This document shows, in pieces, positions 3,230 through 17,327 of a stretch of 27,485 nt of DNA. The position numbers and the translations under genes are program-made. The notes beneath the pieces were generated by a model. It saw only the letters and a list, made by a program, of their open reading frames with translations, did not search any database and was not told where the DNA came from. The first letter of the stretch is position 1. Each line of letters starts with the position of its first letter. Origin of the DNA: Deltaproteobacteria bacterium (GTDB lineage Bacteria > Desulfobacterota_B > Binatia > UBA9968); the NCBI GenBank assembly GCA_016193385.1, contig JACPSF010000018.1:1-27485 (forward strand), written 5' to 3'.

Positions 3230-4300
3230 TTAAATCAAGCCGACGGCACGTAACAGATGGTTCCCCCGGGCAGGCGCTCTGGATGAGCTCTGCTGGTCAC
3301 AGATTTCAGTGACCTTGATCGGGAAATATCCTGCTAATCCGTCCCATATCACCTCGCAGTGAGGCTTCGGGAAATCGAAGCCGCTAACCACATACGCACC
3401 AAGCTCCCGCTGAAACTCCTTCGGTTGGTACGGATACACGGCATAGAGCTTCAATCCATGACTTTTGATCCCATTCGCAATTACCGCATTGATGTGCTCA
3501 TCATTAAAGCCATAGCCAGCAACCACGAGCTTCCGATCCCCCGCGCATAGAACCTCTTCAAACAACGACTGATACCAGTTAAGAAGTGGTTCTTTCTTGA
3601 GAAGGTCAGTCTTCGCATGTCCGATCACTAGACCAGGTGTTCCATCGTGGAATTGCCAGCTATACGACCCGTGAAGCTTTATATATGCCAATGGACGATA
3701 AGACCTTTTGCTCCAAAAGTCTGCCTTGTATTTTTGCAGCCAATCGTGATCCGGCAGCTTTACCCAGTCGTCTGGTTCAAGTTGCACATCCAGCGTGCCG
3801 TTAAACCACCTTGGGCTCCTCCGAGGCAATCCCGGGATATCAATCGAGATAGTGGTATCTGAGTTCGAGTAAAAGCGCTCCACAAACAAGTCCTGATTCA
3901 GGGTGAAGAAGAACCCACCTGTGCACCTATCTTTAGATCCAGCAAAACGACGAATTAAGTGGCTACATGCCGCTGCTGCACTATTAAGGTGTCGAGGATC
4001 TACATCCCCAGTGCAAATGGCCTCGTGCATTTGCTGATAGGCATTACTTAGACCCGTACGAAAAGAGGATTTTTGCTCATCTCGATAGCCATCCGGTTTC
4101 ATTATCCGATCGTAAATTTTCTCGTAATCCAGCTCGTTGAGCATTTCTTTCCGCAGGTCGAAATCCCGAGTAATTGCCGGTTGGCTTAGTATAGCAGCCC
4201 ACATTTCACTGGCGAGGTACCCGCGAAAATTTTTCGTGAAGCCGGCTCCCGTTAAGAGGATTGTTTCAGCAGGTTTATACCAATCCGCATCCTTGCCCAC
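3230..4300 (-). CDS. SIR2-domain protein, probable defence NADase
   Basis: This is a stand-alone SIR2-like protein. Numbered from the chosen GTG start, it shows the NAD-binding TGAGFTKN (about 17-24), FFFTLNQDLF with the conserved Asn near 135, IKLHGSYSW with the catalytic-type His near 210, and VVAGYGFNDEHIN (about 260-272). In bacteria such SIR2 proteins often act as NAD-depleting effectors of anti-phage systems (Thoeris ThsA and DSR-type proteins are examples); the sequence does not assign it to a named system. An ATG at 4321 is in frame, but GGAGGAGG lies inside its first codons. This places the real start at the GTG 4298-4300, nine bases after that SD. The gene abuts methyltransferase remnants. 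The last 25 residues or so are low in conservation-like features and may be frame extension. Confidence 0.82.
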   Translation of the reverse strand: MGKDADWYKPAETILLTGAGFTKNFRGYLASEMWAAILSQPAITRDFDLRKEMLNELDYEKIYDRIMKPDGYRDEQKSSFRTGLSNAYQQMHEAICTGDVDPRHLNSAAAACSHLIRRFAGSKDRCTGGFFFTLNQDLFVERFYSNSDTTISIDIPGLPRRSPRWFNGTLDVQLEPDDWVKLPDHDWLQKYKADFWSKRSYRPLAYIKLHGSYSWQFHDGTPGLVIGHAKTDLLKKEPLLNWYQSLFEEVLCAGDRKLVVAGYGFNDEHINAVIANGIKSHGLKLYAVYPYQPKEFQRELGAYVVSGFDFPKPHCEVIWDGLAGYFPIKVTEICDQQSSSRAPARGNHLLRAVGLI

Positions 4301-4302
4301 TG

Positions 4303-4670
4303 TTAATGACCCCTCCTCCATTCAGTAATTTCGGAATAAAGCTCCTGGCGGACCACGCCGCGGGACCAGTGGCGACCGTTCATGAAGCCGTATTTGGTCG
4401 AGATCCGCTGAATGGTGAAAGCCTTGAATAGCCGCTGAATCTCGGGGTGATCATTAATGGAGAGAAGAAGCTTAACCTTGCGCCCGTCCGAGATCTCGGC
4501 CATCCGCGCGAAGTCCTCCGGTTTACGGTTTAAAGCTAGGGCGATAACTTTTTATACCATAGTAGGGTTGATTGAGATAGAAGAAGGTGTGCCCCGATCG
4601 TATCGCTCCAGTATCTGGTGGTAAGGCTTGTTTTCGATGTAGAAGGACAAGAGGTCGAGTCTTTTGTTGT
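4303..4670 (-). pseudogene. Decayed D12-class N6-adenine DNA methyltransferase (C-terminal part)
   Basis: Three pieces of one protein read in different minus-strand frames. FYIENKPYHQILERYDR (about 4645-4595) is followed, after a frameshift, by TFFYLNQPYYGIKSYR (about 4590-4540). After another shift come KPEDFARMAE and then KLLLSINDHPEIQRLFKAFT (below 4520). These match the usual order in D12 (Dam-like) methyltransferases: IEN..Y..IL.RYDR, then FYLDPPYYG, then EDF..MAE, then LLSINDHPEI. The catalytic DPPY motif has become NQPY (4559-4573). The N-terminal SAM-binding half is absent. It is a dead remnant next to the SIR2 gene; the end points are approximate. Confidence 0.75.
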
Positions 4671-5770: not shown

Positions 5771-7717
5771 TCAGATTCTCACGCCGATCTTAAAACCTTC
5801 ATGGATGGCGTTGTGAATCGACCTGGGCCGCACGGCGTCTCCGATGACATATAACTCATCTACGCTGAACTCGAGAAAACCAAGCAAGTCTTGTAACGGC
5901 TGCCGCGGCCCCGCCTGAACGATCGTGTCGGCCTCGATGAACTTTTCTTCTCCATCCTTCTTTTTGATCCTAACACCGCTTTCGCTAACTTCCTCAACCC
6001 GGCTTGCCGTATAAATTTGGATGGAGAACTCTCGGATCCATTTGTCGTGGCGCCATTTCCAGGTGGGGATGACATCCCGGCCGATTTTCTCTTCCTCCTC
6101 CACTACGGATACCGCTTTTCCGTTTGCCGCCAGGGCCTCAGCCGCTACTAGGCCCATTCTATCGCCGCCCAGGACCACGATCTTTTCTCCCGTCTCCACA
6201 TCCTTCTCCAGGATATCAATGGCGCTTACCACCTTGGGTTTGCCGTTAATTTTCCACCGGACCGGGGAGATCTCCGCGCCCGTCGCGACCACCACTACGT
6301 CAGGGGCTTCCGCGTCACAGAGCTTTGGGGTAACCTCCGTATTTAATTTTAGAGTTACCTGAAATTTCTCGATTTGGGTCTTGTAGTGATGCACCAGCTT
6401 GAGAAAGACCTCCCCACCACCAATTTCTCTGGAAGCTGAGAGGAGTTGGCCCCCCGGTTGATCCCTGCGATCGTAGAGTGAAACCTGGTGGCCCCGCTTG
6501 GCGGCGGTAATGGCGCACTCCAGACCTCCCGGCCCAGCGCCGATCACCATGACCTTCTTTTTAGTAACCGCTGGCTTTATCTGGTACTCGGGCTCGTATT
6601 CATGGCCCAACCGGGGATTCACCGCGCAAATATACGGCAGGTTGCGGAACATGCGCGAGAGGCAAAGCAGCCCGCCCACGCATGGCCTGATCTCTTTGGT
6701 ACGGCCTTCCTTGATCTTGTGCACGAGTTGGGGATCGGCGAGCAGGGGGCGGCAAACTTCCCAGAAATCTATGATTCCATCTCTGAGGGCCTGCTCAGCC
6801 AAAAAGGGGTCGCCGAAACGCGGCCCAAAAGCCACCGGTACGTTGAGGACTTTCTTTGCGGCCTCCGCCAGATGAAGCCAATGGTCGGTAGGAACGTCTC
6901 GCCCCAGGGCGCCGGTGCGCGACTCATGCCAACCGATCACTAGACTAATGCAATCAGCGCCGGCCCTTTCGGCCATTTTCATAAACTCCAAGCATTCATC
7001 GGGGGTGTTGCCACCGTACTCGTCCATCAACTCGACGCCGTTCAACCTGACGATGACCGGTTTGTCATCTCCGATCGCTTCTTTGATGGCCTGAATAACC
7101 TCGACCATGAATCTGCCGCGATTTTCGACCGAGCCGCCGTACTCGTCGGTGCGCAAATTGGTGAATTTTGAGTTGAAGTTCGATAGGAGATAGCCCATAA
7201 AGCTGGTGATCTCCACGCCGTGAAATCCGGCCTCGATGGAGCGCCGGGCAGCCTGGGCGTGCTCATGGATGCACTCCTTGATTTCCGCCTTGGACATCTC
7301 CTTGGTAGGCCTGAAGTGTCATAGGATTTGTTTGGTGCTGGACGGTTGGACGCAGTAGTCGAGTTCTATGCCGCCGTAGCGTCCGCCGTGCAGCATCTGC
7401 TGGATCGAGATCGCCCCCTGCCGGTTGATCATCTCGGCGACTTTGGCCAGAGAGGGGATATATTTGTCGTCACAGAGGGCAAGCTGACGGAGATAGGCTT
7501 TTCCTTCCCCCTTGCGGTCGGGATAGGCCCCTTGGTTCGTGATGATGCCGCAACCGGTCCCGGAGATGACCTCCATTCGAGCCATCTCCCTCTCCGACGT
7601 ATACCCGTCCAGGGTATTGAAGTTGGAAACTCAGCAGGCGGCGTACTTGATGCGGTTTGAGGTGTCAAACCGGCCGAGCCGTCCGGGTTCAAAAAGGCGT
7701 ATAAAGTCTACTGCCAT
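5771..7717 (-). CDS. OYE/2,4-dienoyl-CoA reductase-type FMN/FAD/NAD(P)H oxidoreductase with two in-frame UGA codons
   Basis: One continuous minus-strand frame of 649 codons gives the normal length (about 640-670 aa) of the FadH/trimethylamine-dehydrogenase/enoate-reductase family. The frame starts at ATG 7717 and is broken only by TGA at codon 29 (7631-7633) and codon 133 (7319-7321). The N-terminal TIM barrel shows FEPGRLGRFDTSNRIKYAAC (9-28), LHGGRYGG (109-116) and RTDEYGGSVENRGRF (189-203). The Fe-S region is CVGGLLC...ICAVNP with cysteines at 346, 352 and 364, so the usual second ligand of the C-x2-C-x3-C-x11-C pattern reads Gly. FAD-binding GAGPGG is at 393-398 and a second Rossmann GGDRMG at 517-522. 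Codon 29 aligns with Thr37 of OYE1 and Cys26 of YqjM, which touch the flavin. It is the last gene of the operon. Selenoprotein or decaying gene: both remain possible. Confidence 0.85.
7601..7633 (-). promoter_or_regulatory. Candidate bacterial SECIS downstream of UGA codon 29
   Basis: Directly after the TGA at 7633-7631 the minus strand has 13 bases, then the perfect stem ATACCC / GGGTAT closed by the five-base loop TGGAC (stem-loop 7617-7601). The loop begins 19 nt after the UGA, inside the 16-37 nt window of the published bacterial SECIS consensus, and has G at loop position 2. E. coli fdhF has its loop 17 nt after UGA and also carries GG in the loop. The region is coding, as bacterial SECIS elements are. 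Confidence 0.5.
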
Positions 7718-7775: not shown

Positions 7776-7898
7776 TCAAGAGTCAAGGTTCAAAAGTCGC
7801 GCGGCATCTCCTCCCGGTATCTTTTCAGACTCGTGCGGCAAAAAATGGGCATGAATATCGATCACTTTAGGCACGGCTTGGCTCCCGTGCGATGTCAT
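7776..7898 (-). pseudogene. Truncated amidohydrolase N-terminus
   Basis: The 40-codon frame overlaps the stop of the upstream small gene (ATGA) and reads VPKVIDIHAHFLPHESEK. This is the metal-binding beta-strand-1 HxH motif (IDIHAHFLP) of the amidohydrolase 2 / ACMSD decarboxylase family. It then stops after LLNLDS. Normal members are about 300-350 aa, so nearly the whole barrel is missing, and no downstream piece of the barrel is seen before the flavoprotein ATG 58 bases later. The simplest reading is that a deletion removed the rest. In related operons such amidohydrolases decarboxylate or hydrolyse ring intermediates. Confidence 0.6.
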
Positions 7899-8074
7899 TC
7901 TAAGCTTAAAGGGTCTGAGACATGCAAGGCAAGCATCTCCAGACTCGCGAGAATCCGGTCCGCGTTTTTGACCCCGGCGGGCATGTCGCATTCCAGGGCC
8001 AATCGCCTCAGCTCCTGGGCGGCCTCGCGCATCTTGCCTATCTCTCGATCCATGGCGCGCAGCTTCTCGTTCAT
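7895..8074 (-). CDS. Small 59-aa helical protein, unknown function
   Basis: The ATG overlaps the TGA of the upstream ligase gene (ATGA at 8074-8071) and its own TGA overlaps the ATG of the amidohydrolase remnant. This is typical of translationally coupled operon genes and supports it as real. The sequence is amphipathic and charged (MNEKLRAMDREIGKMREAAQ, then ELRRLALECD), probably two helices separated by a MPAG turn, followed by a second helix DRILASLEMLALHV. There is one Cys, no signal peptide and no membrane segment. No family was recognised; it could be a small accessory subunit of one of the operon enzymes. Confidence 0.65.
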   Translation of the reverse strand: MNEKLRAMDREIGKMREAAQELRRLALECDMPAGVKNADRILASLEMLALHVSDPLSLE

Positions 8075-9393
8075 CTCAGGTCCTTGAAACGGTTAGCCTT
8101 GACCTCAAAGCGCGGCAGCGTCCCATGCGCTTCCAGCTCGACATTTATCCGGACGCCGGTATGGAGCCTCAGCGCTTGCTTCAGACGCTCCTCCAGGTCG
8201 GGGCGGTTTCGCTCATCGGGCTTCATTTCCACCTTTACGGTCACCTCATCCAATTCTCCCTTTTTCTGGAGGATGACCTGATACTCATCCCCGAACTCGG
8301 GAAATGCCCGGACAACCTCTTCAACGCTTGTCGGAGAGAAGAGGACGCCTCGAATCTTGGTCAGCCTGTCACTACGGCCTAAAATTCCTCCTTTGAACAG
8401 GCGAAAACTGCGGCCGCACTTGCAAGGCTCTCCCGAGAGGAGGGCGGTGTCCTTCAAGTTAAAACGCAGATAGGACTGCGCCTTTCGATCCAACGGCGTA
8501 ATAACCAGCTCCCCTTTTCCACCAGGCTCCACGGGCTGCCCTGTCTCCGTATCCAGGACCTCCACTAGAAACATGGCTTCGTTGACGTGGAGGCCCCCGG
8601 CCTGCTCAGCACATTCAAATCCCCAGGCGCCGCCTTCGGTGGCTCCCGCATGATCGTACACCTTCGCTCCCCACCTCTCTTCGATTCGCCGCTTGGTCGC
8701 GGGTATTAACGCGCCCGGCTCGCCGGAGCAGAGCATCTTGGAGATGTGCAGCTCATTGGGCAAATTGATTCCCATCCGTCCGGCGACCTCAGCCATATGC
8801 AGGGCATAAGTGGGCGTGCACATCAAGGCTGTGGCCTGAAGCTCTTTCATCTTGAGTATGCGATCCTCGGTGGAGAGCCCGCCCCCCGGGATGACCTCAC
8901 AGCCGATCTTCTCACAGGCGTAGTGCCCCGCCCAAAACGCTATGAAGACCCCGTAGGAGAACGGGATGAAAACGCGATCCTGCGGGCGAAAGCCCTGGGC
9001 CCACAGGACCGTCGCCCAACACTCGCTCCACCATTCCCAATCTCTCCACGAGTCCGCTTGTCGGACCGTTTGACCCGTCGTGCCGGAGGTCTGATGGTAG
9101 GCGGTGACCTCCTCGGTCGGAACTGCGAGCAGGGCCCCGTAAGGATAAGGATCGGCTTGTTGAGCCTCGCGCAGCTCATTCTTGTCCGTCCTCGGGATCT
9201 TTTGGATATCGCTCAAGCTCTTTATAGCGGCGGGTTTGATTTTGGCGCTGTCGAGTTTTTTGCGATAGAAAGGCGAGTTCGTGTAAACATGATTGACGGC
9301 GCGCTTAAACTTCAGCAGCTGGAGGTGCTCCAACTGGTCGCGCGGCAGGGTCTCTAACACCGGGTTCCAGTACCGGGCGGTGCTAAAATTCAT
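8071..9393 (-). CDS. Phenylacetate-CoA ligase family (PaaK-like) aryl/acyl-CoA ligase
   Basis: This AMP-forming ligase would activate an aromatic or related carboxylic acid to its CoA thioester with ATP. At 440 aa it matches PaaK length. The N-terminus has the family pattern RAVNHVYTNSPFYRKKL and IPRTDKNELRE (66-76). The phosphate-binding loop TSGTTGQTV is at 102-110, YDHAGATEGG carries the A5-type motif, and the C-terminal RFEVKANRFKDL includes the expected basic residues. CxCG-type cysteines (EPCKCGRSF) are also present, as in many PaaK proteins. It lies 43 bases after the second ubiD-like gene and overlaps the next small gene by four bases. Neighbours suggest an aryl or unsaturated acid substrate; sequence alone does not identify it. 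Confidence 0.9.
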   Translation of the reverse strand: MNFSTARYWNPVLETLPRDQLEHLQLLKFKRAVNHVYTNSPFYRKKLDSAKIKPAAIKSLSDIQKIPRTDKNELREAQQADPYPYGALLAVPTEEVTAYHQTSGTTGQTVRQADSWRDWEWWSECWATVLWAQGFRPQDRVFIPFSYGVFIAFWAGHYACEKIGCEVIPGGGLSTEDRILKMKELQATALMCTPTYALHMAEVAGRMGINLPNELHISKMLCSGEPGALIPATKRRIEERWGAKVYDHAGATEGGAWGFECAEQAGGLHVNEAMFLVEVLDTETGQPVEPGGKGELVITPLDRKAQSYLRFNLKDTALLSGEPCKCGRSFRLFKGGILGRSDRLTKIRGVLFSPTSVEEVVRAFPEFGDEYQVILQKKGELDEVTVKVEMKPDERNRPDLEERLKQALRLHTGVRINVELEAHGTLPRFEVKANRFKDLR

Positions 9394-9436: not shown

Positions 9437-10954
9437 TTACGTCCGGTTAATCCAACGATGATAATCATGAGCACTCAGGTAGTCTTTCAGGTCGGTCTTT
9501 TTGAATCTGGCCCGCTCAAAAATCGGCAGGCTGGTTCCTCTTTTCAGGTTCTTATACTTCCATGGAACCGTGGCATCGATAATCATTTTCGCCTTGCCGA
9601 CGAAACTTCCATCCATCAGCTCTCTGGCTCCGGCTATGGGGTTGTTTCGGTGGGTTTTGACTTCCGGGATGATGTGAATTTGCTCGGAGGGGTTACACCG
9701 GGTGGTCACGGCCCAGTCAATCTCGTCCATATCAAGGATATTGACGTCTTCGTCTACGATGGTGATGGTTTCGAGGTAAACGGAAAAGCCAAAGGCTGCC
9801 ATCGCGACGTGGGTTTGAAGTCCCTCAAAATCGTAGTCATCCTTTTTGACCTGGATGACGCCATGATGCCAGTGCGCTGACCCGGGCGTCAGGGCCGCGT
9901 CGATCACGAAGTTGGGCTCGAGCGCCTTCGCGTACTGATAAAAGGCGACATCGTTCGATATCCTCAGGTTATAGTTTTCCTTGGTCCCGGCAACAATGGC
10001 ATACGCGACCGCGTCTTTTCGCAAGGAGAGGGCCTTGATTTTAAGGATCGGTTTCTGCTGGGGAATACTTAAGTATTTCAAGAACTCGGGCCAAGGCCCT
10101 TCCGTGCCGACGCCGTAAGGGGGCTCGATGACTCCTTCGATCACAAATCCCGCCTCCGCGGGGACATCCACGTCTATGGTCTCGCATTTGACCATCTCCA
10201 CCGGTTTCCCCCGGATCGCGCCGGCCAGGCCGAGCTCATCCTGGCCTATAGGCAGCTTGGTCGCAGCAGAGATGTACATCTCGAGAGGCGCCCCTATGAC
10301 CAGGGCCACCTCGAAAGGCTTTCCTTCCTTTTTGCACTTCCTGAAGTCATGGCCGACTCCGGTTTCATTTCTCACATTCAAGATAACGGTGTTATTTTGG
10401 AGGAGCATGGCCCTATTCATGGCTACGTTTTGAAGCCCGGTTTCCGGGTCTTTCGTGATGACAAGGGGCTGGAAATATTTTCCTCCGTCGTCGGGTGTAG
10501 CCTTTATGGAAGGGACGATTTTAAGGGCGTCAAAGTCGCGGGTATAAATTTTCTCTTTGCAGGGGCCATTTTTAACTTTGATCGGAGGGATACGGGTTTC
10601 GCTGATCTTTATGAAAGCCTCTTTGAACTCCAGGGGCGAGGAGGGCAGGCCAAGGATATCACAGGTCCTGACCCGTTCGGAAAGGATGCATGAGGCGACG
10701 GGGAAGTCGTAACCTTTGACGTTTTTGAAAAGGACCCCCGGCGTCCTCGGTAGCGCGTTCAAAGCTGAAATGATTCCCGGCAACTCGCACTCTGAGTCCA
10801 CCTCTCTCTCTATTTCAACGACGTCCCCTCTCTCGGCGTAATAGTCGATGACACCAGCGAGTCCGCTCCGGAGGAGGGATCCAGGGACGAGCCCCTTACC
10901 CCCGGAATGATCACGATGTCTCGATCTGCCTGAACCCTCGTCGCAACCGCCCAA
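9437..10954 (-). CDS. UbiD family decarboxylase, second of the tandem pair
   Basis: UbiD enzymes (de)carboxylate aromatic or unsaturated acids with prenylated FMN. Visible family features include VIDYYAERGDVVEIEREVDS at the N-terminus, LVITKDPETGLQNVAMNR (substrate/cofactor region), EPPYGVGTEGPWPEF with the conserved acidic cluster, and a C-terminal VDEDVNILDMDEIDWAVTTR. The start is a problem. The only upstream start codon in frame is TTG at 10954, inside the preceding ubiD gene, which adds about 30 residues with no family resemblance; conserved sequence begins near LLRSGLAGVIDYY (about 10870). An AGGAAG precedes that TTG. Either a long coupled overlap exists, or a deletion fused the two genes out of frame. 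No ubiX-type prenyltransferase is present in the window. Confidence 0.85.
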   Translation of the reverse strand: MGGCDEGSGRSRHRDHSGGKGLVPGSLLRSGLAGVIDYYAERGDVVEIEREVDSECELPGIISALNALPRTPGVLFKNVKGYDFPVASCILSERVRTCDILGLPSSPLEFKEAFIKISETRIPPIKVKNGPCKEKIYTRDFDALKIVPSIKATPDDGGKYFQPLVITKDPETGLQNVAMNRAMLLQNNTVILNVRNETGVGHDFRKCKKEGKPFEVALVIGAPLEMYISAATKLPIGQDELGLAGAIRGKPVEMVKCETIDVDVPAEAGFVIEGVIEPPYGVGTEGPWPEFLKYLSIPQQKPILKIKALSLRKDAVAYAIVAGTKENYNLRISNDVAFYQYAKALEPNFVIDAALTPGSAHWHHGVIQVKKDDYDFEGLQTHVAMAAFGFSVYLETITIVDEDVNILDMDEIDWAVTTRCNPSEQIHIIPEVKTHRNNPIAGARELMDGSFVGKAKMIIDATVPWKYKNLKRGTSLPIFERARFKKTDLKDYLSAHDYHRWINRT

Positions 10955-12093
10955 ATAACTTCCTGCAAATTGGTAATATCGATATCTTCATCGACGACGA
11001 TGACCTGTTTTAAGTACATCTCAGCCGACAGGGCGGCGATCATGGCCGATTGCGCCTGTCCCTGAAATCTCTTTTTGATTGAAATAATGAGGGAGAACGG
11101 CGCAGGGACGTGAACGTCAATGAGGGTCGGCACCGCGCCCTTGACGGACTTATAGAGGTTTGCCTCCATGGGAATGGTCGCCATCACAAGATGCTCTCGA
11201 TGCTGCCCGCCGCAAATGTCCTGGTATATCGCTTTCTTCCTTAGATGCATGGATTTGACGGTTACAACCGGTCTCAATCCTTTCCCGGTCGCGTATCCCG
11301 AGAATTCGCAAAAGGGGCCTTCTTCTTCTCTCAGGTGGGGCTCAACGACCCCCTCCAGTACAATCTCGGCTGCGGCAGGAAAAAGGGTGCCGGTTAAGTT
11401 TCCCCTCAGCACTTCAGCCGGGCCTCCGAGAAGACCGCCGATAATCCCCAGCTCGCTATCGCCGTAGGCGCCGATATAGAGGGCGCCCAGTGCCCAGGCG
11501 GGGTGATTGCCGAGGGAGACGCTGATGGGAAGCGGTTTCCCTCGCTCTTCCATCCTCGAGTAGATCTCATGGAGGTGCTTTCCCACCGTCATGAAAATTC
11601 CGGCCCGGTTTCGGCTTTTGTACATCAGCCGGTTGAAGCTGGCGTTGTACTTTCCCGTTTCCGGGTCTTCCGCCAAAACCATCCCGGCCGTGATGTAGGG
11701 GGCGGCATCGCCCTCGTGATAGGTCATCATGGGAAGGGTCTTCAAGTCCACATCATGTTCACCGATGGTCTCCTCCATGACGGGCCCGTCGGAAACAATC
11801 TCGGGGGGAATTTGATTTTCAACAGCCTCCAGGTATTTGTCTCTGAACTTTTGTGGATCAATGCCGAGGCTGGATGCAATCTTCTTCTTGGTGGAGTAGA
11901 GATTCGTCACTACGGGCAAATCCGAGCCCTTGACCTTTTCGTAAAAAAGGATCGGGAGCTTCCTTGTCTCCTCGAGCTTCGTCAATATCGCGGCGACTTC
12001 GTATTTGGGATCGACTTCCTTTTTGATCCTGCAGAACTCTCTCGGGTTCGCCCGTTCATACTCGGCGAGAAATCCTCTCAAGTCTTTGGGCAT
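10810..12093 (-). CDS. UbiD family decarboxylase, first of the tandem pair
   Basis: This prenyl-FMN-dependent (de)carboxylase has 427 aa from the chosen start. The N-terminus MPKDLRGFLAEYER followed by REFCRIKKEVDPKYEVAAI is typical. ETGKYNASFNRLMYKSRNRA, EEEGPFCEFSGYATGKGLRP (acidic catalytic cluster) and DRDIVIIPGVRGSSLDPSS near the C-terminus follow in the usual order. The ATG at 12093 is preceded by GAGGGGGGAATAGG and lies one base after the stop of the CoA-transferase B gene; in-frame upstream ATGs fall inside that gene. After LDPSS the last 20 or so residues look unlike the usual C-terminus, and the overlap with the next gene suggests the two genes were joined by a deletion. Confidence 0.87.
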   Translation of the reverse strand: MPKDLRGFLAEYERANPREFCRIKKEVDPKYEVAAILTKLEETRKLPILFYEKVKGSDLPVVTNLYSTKKKIASSLGIDPQKFRDKYLEAVENQIPPEIVSDGPVMEETIGEHDVDLKTLPMMTYHEGDAAPYITAGMVLAEDPETGKYNASFNRLMYKSRNRAGIFMTVGKHLHEIYSRMEERGKPLPISVSLGNHPAWALGALYIGAYGDSELGIIGGLLGGPAEVLRGNLTGTLFPAAAEIVLEGVVEPHLREEEGPFCEFSGYATGKGLRPVVTVKSMHLRKKAIYQDICGGQHREHLVMATIPMEANLYKSVKGAVPTLIDVHVPAPFSLIISIKKRFQGQAQSAMIAALSAEMYLKQVIVVDEDIDITNLQEVIWAVATRVQADRDIVIIPGVRGSSLDPSSGADSLVSSTITPREGTSLK

Positions 12094-12094
12094 C

Positions 12095-12877
12095 CTATTC
12101 CCCCCTCGGACTTGTATATCTTTTCTCCGGATCGAGAACGTGAAGAATTCTAAGCTCTTCTTCGGTCGGGGGCGAGGCTTCATAGAGATCGTCCTTTACC
12201 ATAAGAGGGAAGCCTGTGTTCTCTTGAACCTTCTCGACCGTGGCTCCCGGCTGAAGCCCTTCAAGACGCATCACGCCTTTTCTGTCGTCAAAGCCCAGGA
12301 TCGCGAGATGGGTGACGACTTTGAGCGCGCCGCCCGCGATCAAGCCCGCCTGCTTCCTGGAATCGCCGCCATTCAGGTATCCAGGACTCGTGATAAAATC
12401 CACTTTTTTGACCAGCCTGCGCTTCTCGTGATGCATGGCGACGATGACCTTTGAGAGGCTCGCAATGTCGTTTCCACCCCCCGTTCCCGGAAGCCTGACG
12501 CTGGGTTTATCCCAGTCGCCGATGAAGGAGCTGTTGATGTTCCCGTACTGGTCTACTTGAGCGCCGCCCAGGAAGCCGTAGTCGACGTAGCCCCGCTGTT
12601 GGAGGAGCAGGACGTCGGTTGTGGCCAGGACCATGTTGGCATGTGCGGCGCACCTCTGTTCGTTCGTCGACGGAGGAAGTTTCCCCGGTTCGACGAAAGG
12701 GCCGATCACTCCGCCTTCGAAGAGGATGGTAAGGCCCTTCGCGTGGGTTTTCTGGGCAAGGATTGCAGCCAGGAGGGGGAGTCCGGCGCCCGCAAAAACC
12801 ACCTTCCCGTCCTCAAGGAGTCTTGCGCTGGAAATACAGACCAACTCTGCCGTGTTGTAGGTCACCTCAGCCACCAT
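12095..12877 (-). CDS. CoA-transferase subunit B (glutaconate CoA-transferase / IpdB type)
   Basis: This is the beta subunit of a class I CoA-transferase. The motif VVFAGAGLPLLAAILAQ (29-45), ILFEGGVIGP, and the glycine-rich LPGTGGGNDIASLSK are characteristic. At 260 aa it is the usual length. It begins eleven bases inside the end of the A subunit gene, so the two are translationally coupled and would form an alpha-beta complex in the cytosol. Known relatives either transfer CoA between short dicarboxylic acids (GctAB) or hydrolyse a ring of a CoA thioester (IpdAB in steroid catabolism). The neighbouring decarboxylases and ligase fit either role. Confidence 0.88.
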   Translation of the reverse strand: MVAEVTYNTAELVCISSARLLEDGKVVFAGAGLPLLAAILAQKTHAKGLTILFEGGVIGPFVEPGKLPPSTNEQRCAAHANMVLATTDVLLLQQRGYVDYGFLGGAQVDQYGNINSSFIGDWDKPSVRLPGTGGGNDIASLSKVIVAMHHEKRRLVKKVDFITSPGYLNGGDSRKQAGLIAGGALKVVTHLAILGFDDRKGVMRLEGLQPGATVEKVQENTGFPLMVKDDLYEASPPTEEELRILHVLDPEKRYTSPRGE

Positions 12878-13823
12878 GCCCCATCCTCGCGCCTGAAGTG
12901 GCTTTTAAGATATCCTTCACGGGGAAGAGCCCGAGGTAATCATCGAATGTCTCCGGCGTGTAGAAGTATTTATCCAGATACTCGTTGACCCCATCGAAGC
13001 TCTTTTCCATCATGAGCTTTACATACATGTCCATGTGGTTAAAGTCAGGCTCGTAGACCCCGTAACACTCGTGGGGGAGGCAGCCATAGGGTGCCTCCAC
13101 CACGGCGTCGACGCACAAAAAGGGAATGTCCGTCCGGTCGGGAACCCTCCTGATTTCGCTGTTATCGATAATTTCTTCGGCGGTCAAAATCACGGTGGTT
13201 GCCGCCAGGGCAATGTCTTTGTCCATGAAGGGGAAACCGCCGATCTGCGCGTTGCCGTATGGGTCGGCCCTCTGGACATGGATGATAGCCACGTCCGGAT
13301 TAAGCGCGGGGATCAGAGCGAGCTTTTCCCCCGTGAAAGGGCAGTTCATCTCTTTTATTATATGGCCGAGCCTTTTGGAGACATCAGAGCCCAGCATGGA
13401 TCGCGCCGGCAGGAAAGGAACCCCCATCGCTCCCGCCCGATACCTTAACCCGAGGCTCATGTGGCTCCACTCCTCGTATTGAGCTTCTCCGGATTGAACG
13501 TAGTGCCTCATGATCCTTGAAACTCCCCAGGTGACCCCAGGGCTGAACCAGCTCGTGATGATATGGCGGGTGGCGCCTGCCACAAGCAGCAGGTCTCCTT
13601 CGGTAGCCGTGATGCTCTTGGAGAAGGTCAGACCCTTTTTTCTCTGTCTGATCATCTCCCAAATCAGTGCCATGGGGGTTCGTGAATAGTGGCAGCCGCC
13701 GATGGCCACGTGGACGTTGTCCGGGATGAGGGCCACAGCCTGGCTTAAGCTTTTAACCTTCTCTCTGAGCCCCTTGTCCTTTTTTTCAACCTTTTCCCGA
13801 AGCTCGAGGTATGAACTTGCCAT
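12867..13823 (-). CDS. CoA-transferase subunit A (glutaconate CoA-transferase / IpdA type)
   Basis: This is the alpha subunit partner of the downstream B gene and the first gene of the minus-strand catabolic operon. Family features include HVAIGGCHYSRTPMALIWEM near residue 38, GLTFSKSITATEGDLLL, and PDVAIIHVQRADPYGNAQIGG in the C-terminal half. The length of 318 aa is normal. The start ATG has a modest AAAGG seven to eight bases upstream. The upstream gap (13824-14113) separates it from a divergent ornithine-cyclodeaminase-family gene and should contain the operon promoter; no strong -35/-10 pair was identified there. The substrate is unknown. Confidence 0.88.
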   Translation of the reverse strand: MASSYLELREKVEKKDKGLREKVKSLSQAVALIPDNVHVAIGGCHYSRTPMALIWEMIRQRKKGLTFSKSITATEGDLLLVAGATRHIITSWFSPGVTWGVSRIMRHYVQSGEAQYEEWSHMSLGLRYRAGAMGVPFLPARSMLGSDVSKRLGHIIKEMNCPFTGEKLALIPALNPDVAIIHVQRADPYGNAQIGGFPFMDKDIALAATTVILTAEEIIDNSEIRRVPDRTDIPFLCVDAVVEAPYGCLPHECYGVYEPDFNHMDMYVKLMMEKSFDGVNEYLDKYFYTPETFDDYLGLFPVKDILKATSGARMGHGG

Positions 13824-15244: not shown

Positions 15245-15309
15245 CACTTCTGAACCGTCGGTTTTTCAGGTGAGTGGGTGTAGCGTTTGAGAGGGAGGTA
15301 GCTGCAATC

Positions 15310-16329
15310 ATGCCCGAAGGGAAAATCCGAATCGGCATCATGGGGTTGGGCCGAATTGGTCGACACCTCTATCACCTTGCGCTGGAAGGTGACGATATCG
15401 AAATCGCCGCAGCTGCGGATCTCGGCAAACCGGAAATCATCCACTACCTCCTCAAAAGCGACGGTCTAGATGAGCCGTGCTGCGAACTCCGGGATAATTA
15501 TCTGGTAAATGAGAAGTTTCGGACAAGAATGCTACAGCTTGCGAGACCGGGGGACGTCCCGTGGGACGTTTTGGGGGTCGACTGCGTTGTAGACGCCACA
15601 GGCCGATATCGGCGCCGCGAGCACATGGAAGCCCATTTGCGGGCCGGCGCGGGACGGGTCATTCTGGCGTCGTTGCCGGCAGAGCCAATAGATCGTGTCG
15701 TAATCCCCGGCATTAACGAAGCGAGCGCGGTTAGTGAGGACAGACTGATATCAGCAGGGTCAGCAACCACCAATGCTCTTGCGCTCCTGTTGTATTTTCT
15801 GGACAAGGCATTGGGAGTCGACTGCGCGTCAATGACAACGGTACATGCTTATAGCAGCGATCAGTCCCTTCAGGATTATGCACGCGAGGATTTTCGTCGC
15901 AGTCGATCCGCGGCGCAGAACATCATCCCCAACAATAACGAGTCGGCTCGCTGGGTGGAAATCATCCTGCCAAAATTTGCGGGCACATTGAGCGGTTACG
16001 CCCTCAATGTGCCGGTGCAACATGGATCCTTGCTGGATCTCAACTGCGTGATGCGAGATGCCGGAGTGACTGTGAAGCGGGTGAACGAGGCCATTCGTGC
16101 CGCCGCTAGCGATCATCCGATGCTGATAGGTGTGACTGACGATCCGATCGTTTCCTCTGATGTCATCGGTTGCCGGCAATCATTGCTCTTTGATTCGCGG
16201 GCGACCCTCAAGGCGGGAAAAAGAATCGTCAAAGTGCTGGCCTGGTACGAGAGCTTGGGCCATGCGTGCCGCGTGCTCGATGTGGTACGGCACTATCGCA
16301 GGCTCGATGGCATCGGAGGTGTGAAATGA
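15310..16329 (+). CDS. GAPDH-like protein lacking the catalytic cysteine
   Basis: This is a paralogue of glyceraldehyde-3-phosphate dehydrogenase (339 aa). The NAD-binding IGIMGLGRIGRHLY (8-21) is kept, as are the catalytic-type His in TTVHAYSSDQ (H179) and VSSDVIG. The nucleophile motif normally reading S-C-T-T-N-C reads SATTNA (Cys to Ala at 152, codon GCA 15763-15765). The C-terminal NAD-contacting W-Y-D-N-E-x-G-Y-S reads WYESLGHACR. It should therefore not oxidise glyceraldehyde 3-phosphate. The ATG at 15310 follows GGAGGT by ten bases; an in-frame GTG at 15274 is less likely. Its stop overlaps the start of an intact GAPDH gene (ATGA), implying coupled synthesis and perhaps a mixed tetramer or a regulatory subunit. 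Confidence 0.88.
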   Translation: MPEGKIRIGIMGLGRIGRHLYHLALEGDDIEIAAAADLGKPEIIHYLLKSDGLDEPCCELRDNYLVNEKFRTRMLQLARPGDVPWDVLGVDCVVDATGRYRRREHMEAHLRAGAGRVILASLPAEPIDRVVIPGINEASAVSEDRLISAGSATTNALALLLYFLDKALGVDCASMTTVHAYSSDQSLQDYAREDFRRSRSAAQNIIPNNNESARWVEIILPKFAGTLSGYALNVPVQHGSLLDLNCVMRDAGVTVKRVNEAIRAAASDHPMLIGVTDDPIVSSDVIGCRQSLLFDSRATLKAGKRIVKVLAWYESLGHACRVLDVVRHYRRLDGIGGVK

Positions 16330-17327
16330 GAGTTGCAATCAACGGATTTGGCCGAATTGGCCGTACAGTATTCCGTATTTTGGATAAGCGTGCGGACGTT
16401 GAAGTGGTTGCCATTAACGACCTCTTTGACAATGAAGCGCTGCGCTACTTGCTGAATTATGACACTGTTATGGGTCCTTTCGAGGGCACGCTGTGGCTGG
16501 AAGGGGATGATCTGGTAACCGTGCATGGCCGAACCCGGATGCTTTGCGAAAAGGACCCGCTCAAACTACCGTGGGGCGAGCTCGGCATTGACGTCGTCGT
16601 GGAATCGACGGGCATTTTCACTGCCAGGGAACAGCTAACCGATCACCTTCGCGCCGGCGCGAAGCGGGTAGTGCTTACGGTTCCGGCGAAGGACGAGATT
16701 GATTACACGGTCGTGCTCGGCGTCAATGATGAGGGGCTGAATCCGCAACACCGCATTATTTCAAACGCGAGCTGTACCACCAATTGTTTGGCGCCATTGG
16801 CGAAGGTACTCCATGATGCTTTTGGTATAGTGGAAGGCATCATCAACACGGTGCACGCCTATACGAATGACCAGCGCCTCGCCGATGTGCCGCACTCGGA
16901 CTGGCGGCGCAGCCGCGCTGCGGCGGAAAATATCATTCCGACGTCGACCGGTGCCGCCAAGGCGGTCGGCAAGGTGTTGCCTGAATTGCGAGGCAGGCTG
17001 GACGGCATTGCCGCGCGTGTCCCGGTACCCGATGGTTCTGTCGTAGACCTGTTTGTCGAACTGGAAAAACGCGTTATTGCCGAAAATGTACATACCGAGA
17101 TACGAGCCGCGGCCGAGTCCAAGCGCATGAAAGGTATTCTGCAATTTATGGAATTACCCGTAGTATCCTCCGACATTATAGGGAATGCGCATTCCTCCAT
17201 TTTTGACGGGGGATTTACTAATGTTACTGGCAACAGGTATCTCAAGTGCCTCAGTTGGTACGACAACGAATGGGGATATTCCAATCGCGTCTGCGATTTG
17301 CTTGGCGTGATCGCAGGATGGGAATGA
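16326..17327 (+). CDS. gap: Glyceraldehyde-3-phosphate dehydrogenase, type I
   Basis: This converts glyceraldehyde 3-phosphate, phosphate and NAD(P)+ to 1,3-bisphosphoglycerate, a core step of glycolysis and gluconeogenesis in the cytosol. It has 333 aa with all key features: AINGFGRIGR (4-13), ISNASCTTNCLAP with Cys150, INTVHAYTNDQ with His177, RRSRAAAENIIPTSTGAAKA, SSDIIGN and the C-terminal WYDNEWGYSNR. The ATG overlaps the stop of the upstream paralogue and is preceded by GGAGGTG. No other glycolytic gene is nearby, so it may be a second GAPDH in this genome rather than the main one. Confidence 0.95.
   Translation: MRVAINGFGRIGRTVFRILDKRADVEVVAINDLFDNEALRYLLNYDTVMGPFEGTLWLEGDDLVTVHGRTRMLCEKDPLKLPWGELGIDVVVESTGIFTAREQLTDHLRAGAKRVVLTVPAKDEIDYTVVLGVNDEGLNPQHRIISNASCTTNCLAPLAKVLHDAFGIVEGIINTVHAYTNDQRLADVPHSDWRRSRAAAENIIPTSTGAAKAVGKVLPELRGRLDGIAARVPVPDGSVVDLFVELEKRVIAENVHTEIRAAAESKRMKGILQFMELPVVSSDIIGNAHSSIFDGGFTNVTGNRYLKCLSWYDNEWGYSNRVCDLLGVIAGWE

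Follow-up and report, generated by a model that had tools for sequence, protein, structure and literature searches.

A 27,485-nucleotide stretch of DNA from a Deltaproteobacteria bacterium (assembly GCA_016193385.1, contig JACPSF010000018.1), referred to in its full length as the window, carries on its minus strand a gene for a two-domain flavoprotein in which an in-frame UGA at codon 29 very probably encodes selenocysteine (Sec), as judged from comparative sequence analysis. The same comparisons lend good support to a new family of selenoproteins among the old yellow enzymes and their superfamily. In the explanation that we favor, to which we assign as a whole a probability of roughly 0.88, the UGA at codon 29 would be decoded as Sec in this clade by SelB and tRNA-Sec under the direction of a hairpin located 13 nucleotides (nt) downstream, the product would be a flavoprotein of the 2-naphthoyl-coenzyme A (CoA) reductase/2,4-dienoyl-CoA reductase kind, Sec29 would tune its flavin, and a second UGA present in the window copy, at codon 133, would be a separate private lesion or an error. 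The conserved UGA and its flanks, the codons of the hairpin, the replacement of residue 29 by Cys in one relative, and the selenium machinery of the relatives were observed, and the fold was predicted; that selenium is inserted, what Sec29 does, and which substrate is used are proposals.

The gene (positions 5771 to 7717, minus strand) starts with an ATG at position 7717, extends over 648 codons (7717-5774), and ends with a TGA stop codon at 5771-5773. The only internal stops in this frame were two TGA codons, as a preliminary description of this DNA had stated; they lie at codon 29 (7631-7633) and codon 133 (7319-7321), and the context that the description had given for the first of them, NRIKYAAC-UGA-VSNFNT, was read identically here. 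Profile searches assigned residues 8-342 to Oxidored_FMN (PF00724; 175 bits for a cut-off of 27) and residues 387-641 to Pyr_redox_2 (88.8 bits for a cut-off of 26.1). The protein is therefore composed of a PF00724 barrel followed by Pyr_redox_2, the arrangement that characterizes this two-domain reductase class. Its scores were below the NCBIfam equivalog cut-offs for mycofactocin OYE 2 (416.9 versus 793.15 bits), BaiCD (347.5 versus 825 bits), and the long form of bilirubin reductase (304.2 versus 750 bits). No tRNA and no Rfam match above the gathering score was detected in the window.

A scan of genome contigs returned five related loci (L001 to L005), which we count as four metagenome-assembled genomes (MAGs) because L003 and L005 have a common accession prefix. 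L001, L003, L004, and L005 are labeled as Deltaproteobacteria MAGs from groundwater and L002 as "bacterium CPR1"; one homologous database protein, P0008, is labeled Candidatus Binatia. Four of the loci cover codon 29, which is TGA in L001, L004, and L005 and TGC (Cys) in L002. With the window included, TGA was present at codon 29 in four of the five close DNA sequences covering this codon, and in these four sequences the UGA is flanked by conserved coding sequence on both sides. Although the codons of the window and L001 have diverged (277 identical, 238 with silent differences, and 133 with amino acid differences among 648), this UGA and the open frame that follows were retained. The preliminary description had raised the possibility of Sec at this position and had called for a search for UGA at the same codon in other genomes and for a homologue with Cys at position 29 and conserved flanks. 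The former was found in L001, L004, and L005 and the latter in L002 (protein P0012); together with the set of sel genes present in the relatives, these observations support Sec at codon 29. That this UGA is simply a nonsense mutation or an error of sequencing is highly improbable: a second in-frame UGA in the same copy could be taken as a sign of either, but codon 29 is UGA in four sequences, each from a different source, and 12 proteins in the database begin just after it.

The search for homologues found 5,091 proteins, of which the best 120 were listed and combined with the window, L001, L004, and L005 (124 rows). Residue 29 is Ser in 94, Cys in 14, and UGA in 4 of the 112 rows with a letter at this position, so that the commonest residue in the listed homologues is Ser rather than Cys. 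The vicinal residue, encoded by codon 28 (7634-7636, minus strand), is Cys in every one of the 112 rows that have a letter there. Among the best 13 database proteins (P0001 to P0013), 12 lack residue 29, since they start at codon 30, 45, or 48, and the lone full-length member is P0012, the protein of L002, with Cys at position 29. A quick tree was built from residue 60 onward for 73 rows of the homologue set. The 12 shortened rows, the window, L001, and P0012 formed one clade (Shimodaira-Hasegawa-like approximate likelihood ratio test [SH-aLRT] support of 100), and P0012 was placed beside L001 and P0013 (SH-aLRT of 96). Because P0012 falls inside the UGA clade, the Cys form probably arose from the UGA form, although this polarity is not firm, the branch of P0012 being long. 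L002 thus displays an apparent Sec-to-Cys change in a genome that still carries selA, tRNA-Sec, and partial matches to selB and selD.

In all four genomes of the relatives, selA, selB, selD, and tRNA-Sec were detected above the cut-offs, the selB and selD matches of G002 being partial, and ARAGORN identified the anticodon of tRNA-Sec as TCA in each of them. SelD itself holds one TGA in G001, G003, and G004. As a positive control, five of five SelD loci yielded the UGA motif together with a hairpin predicted downstream of it, with a script that also gave many chance frames and for which the chance level was unmeasured. Both internal stops of the flavoprotein gene are UGA, as could be expected if this codon specified an ordinary amino acid genome-wide. 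However, TGA terminates 11 of 19 hand-picked genes of the window, including the flavoprotein gene, indicating that UGA is not reassigned. A changed genetic code was ruled out on this ground, and the TCA anticodon of the relatives' tRNA-Sec also argues against it, leaving this alternative a negligible probability.

The candidate Sec insertion sequence (SECIS) is an AUACCC-UGGAC-GGGUAU hairpin (7601-7617, minus strand) that begins 13 nt after the UGA of codon 29; its perfect ATACCC/GGGTAT stem and UGGAC loop were located at 7617-7601 with the spacing initially reported. The hairpin and a lower stem form a longer predicted fold (7583-7630, minus strand) with a predicted minimum free energy of -15.9 kcal/mol over 48 nt. 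The hairpin is kept in four of four UGA sequences, with one silent change opening the outermost pair in L001, and is absent from the Cys form L002. Codons 32-38 are identical in all four UGA sequences and constitute the longest identical run over the 259 codons common to the window, L001, and L004, the second-longest run being codons 25-29, which ends at the UGA. Six of the seven codons at positions 33-39 are invariant in the four UGA sequences, versus 28 of the 73 other conserved-residue codons within codons 1-113. The retention of the UGA, of the reading frame, and of the codons of the hairpin in the relatives suggests that the association of codon 29 with the hairpin is more than a chance occurrence.

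Several observations weigh against the assignment of Sec to codon 29. Within the gene, 83 of 628 codons are followed by a hairpin of SECIS-like geometry with an equal or higher score, and the hairpin of a Ser form, L016, scores above that of the window (16 versus 15). Synonymous recoding produced the hairpin in 4.4% of 5,000 cases. The fractions of recodings whose fold energy was as good as or better than that of the native sequence were 0.043, 0.37, 0.007, and 0.21 for the four UGA sequences, the native fold being clearly better in only two of the four. No covariation was detected among the hairpin pairs of the four UGA sequences, and in the comparison restricted to the window and L001 a 7-codon identical run at codons 230-236 equals that of the hairpin. 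Since so many codons are followed by equally good hairpins, the hairpin by itself is weak evidence, and we use it only in support of the other observations. The DNA sequences of the UGA form number only four, and codon 133 together with an eroded upstream gene (see below) suggests that the window copy is perhaps not made full length. Finally, codons 1-28 are overall little constrained (14 identical, 4 with silent changes, and 10 with amino acid changes between the window and L001).

This poor conservation, and the database gene calls of the 12 shortened proteins, would fit a translation start located after the UGA, at codon 30, 45, or 48, the preceding part being untranslated. We consider such a start very unlikely, because codons 21-28 (NRIKYAAC) encode the same residues in the window, L001, L004, and L005 in spite of silent changes and because the Cys and Ser forms are open across the stretch preceding codon 29. 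Translation from a downstream start would also remove a strand predicted at residues 23-25, which we take as the first barrel strand of the protein.

Further UGA forms were sought with strict cut-offs, which missed pieces of genes. Among 25 genomes of the G001 family, seven had a match at the cut-off, with TGA at codon 29 in G001 and G004 and a match limited to the 3' part of the gene in G003. Extension to 148 genomes of the class returned seven genomes with a match, the same as in the family scan, and no further UGA form. With P0040 as the query, 6 of 395 genomes drawn from the phylum had a match and TGA was found in G001 only; with P0012 as the query, the single match among 149 genomes of the G002 phylum was G002 itself. 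The match in G022, in which residue 29 is Ser, was scored as containing one TGA within residues 232-648.

The second UGA (codon 133, minus strand) occupies a position at which 97 of the 124 rows have Arg and 20 have Lys; the three closest proteins have Arg, and L001 and L004 have Lys codons. With one of these two residues in 117 of the 124 rows, codon 133 is not a Sec site, and its UGA is therefore either a nonsense codon private to the window or an error in the sequence; the window copy is for this reason perhaps inactive. Between the ligase gene described below and the flavoprotein gene sits an Amidohydro_2 gene that is complete in L005 (340 amino acids; Pfam Amidohydro_2) and L004 (333 amino acids) and reduced in the window to a remnant (7779-7889, minus strand) in which about 20 codons of each end are joined in frame. 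The window copy may be freshly broken, or it may have been hit by sequence or assembly errors. The first alternative, in which the family is a selenoprotein family and the operon of the window is decaying, with the UGA at codon 133 as a genuine nonsense codon, has in our estimate slightly less than an even chance; it is compatible with the explanation that we favor and concerns this copy only. The residues found at position 133 in the homologues and the loss of all but the ends of the amidohydrolase gene are in its favor. However, the window has no private change at 310 columns that are invariant across 14 other rows (residues 60-648, column 133 being excluded from these), and hence no sign of relaxed selection, and either lesion may be a sequence or assembly error.

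The best structural match of the window protein was 2-naphthoyl-CoA reductase (NCR). In phmmer alignments, the place of Sec29 is occupied by Val, next to a one-residue gap, in NCR (PDB 6qkg) and by His in the 2,4-dienoyl-CoA reductase FadH of E. coli (1ps9). In comparison to the four-Cys Fe-S motif of FadH (CIGCNQAC...C), and also to NCR, the motif of the window protein (residues 346-364) is one Cys short: C346, C352, and C364 are present, and Gly349 takes the place of the second Cys of the FadH pattern C-x2-C-x3-C...C. Because of this replacement, the protein was not assigned to the [4Fe-4S] reductases. Position 349 is Gly in 104, Cys in 16, and Asp in 2 of the 122 rows with a letter, suggesting that the Fe-S cluster may be altered in most of the listed relatives.

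Old yellow enzymes tune their flavin via the residue equivalent to Sec29, which is Thr, Ser, or Cys elsewhere. Alignment without gaps from the N-R motif placed Cys26 of the old yellow enzyme YqjM at Sec29, as the preliminary description had proposed; Thr37 of OYE1 presumably occupies the same position. The PDB titles of XenA and of a Thermus ene-reductase (TsER) name C25 variants, and we take C25 to be the Sec29 position in both. YqjM, XenA, and TsER are single-domain enzymes that have Cys and are devoid of selenium, in contrast to the two-domain window protein with its proposed Sec29. Cys30 of trimethylamine dehydrogenase (TMADH), which is mutated in 1djq (C30A in the title), also aligned with residue 29 without gaps from the N-R motif, so that the proposed selenol would occupy the TMADH flavin-linking position, and the histamine dehydrogenases 3k30 and 6de6 likewise have Cys at this place. 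These enzymes are amine dehydrogenases in which the preceding residue is His, in contrast to Cys28 of the window protein. Sec29 comes after the strand predicted at residues 23-25 and is expected next to the flavin mononucleotide (FMN), the location of YqjM Cys26, OYE1 Thr37, and TMADH Cys30. It would most likely tune the flavin (redox potential and N5/C4 reactivity) via its selenolate, possibly with the participation of Cys28. We assume that TMADH Cys30 forms the 6-S-cysteinyl-FMN link. A bond between Sec29 and FMN in an aryl- or enoyl-CoA reductase is unlikely; it could consist of a 6-Se-selenocysteinyl-FMN in place of the C6-linking Cys of TMADH or of an Se-flavin adduct that forms reversibly and is resolved by the thiol of Cys28. 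Such a bond, if true, would define a selenium-modified flavin cofactor.

A flavoprotein designated "NADH oxidase" (Geobacter metallireducens; GOS set) appears on published selenoprotein lists (PMC2398784, PMC9312934, and PMC1794560). The listing files it under PRK09564/COG0446, CoA-disulfide reductase, whereas the proposed Sec of the window protein is in Oxidored_FMN (residues 8-342) and not in Pyr_redox_2 (residues 387-641). Identity with this selenoprotein was rejected from that listing, the two proteins being set apart by description and not by sequence. Neither "flavin" nor "old yellow" appears in the main text of PMC2398784 or PMC9312934, and "flavin" is likewise absent from that of PMC1794560. 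No Sec-containing member of the Oxidored_FMN family turned up in text searches of the open-licence PMC literature, a scope that leaves most subscription journals outside.

The flavoprotein gene is located beside genes, all on the minus strand, that encode an AMP-binding, phenylacetate-CoA-ligase-like protein (8071-9393; PF00501 and PF14535), two UbiD-family proteins (9437-10954 and 10810-12183), and two CoA-transferase subunits (12095-12877 and 12867-13823). The probable role of the flavoprotein is the reduction of a CoA-bound ring or enoyl compound that the neighboring UbiD and ligase proteins would generate. Elsewhere, the window contains a pair of genes for an AbiEii-like nucleotidyltransferase and an AbiEi-like antitoxin (868-2554), a gene with a SIR2-like domain (3230-4321), and two adjoining glyceraldehyde-3-phosphate dehydrogenase family genes whose ends overlap (15274-17327).

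One consequence of the UGA at codon 29 concerns the databases, in which proteins of this clade have been entered without their N-terminal part, as is the case for 12 of the 13 best matches. Nature has apparently placed selenium at a flavin-tuning position, and one lineage has apparently returned to Cys. The natural Ser/Cys/Sec series at position 29 would offer a means to learn the effect of selenium beside a flavin.
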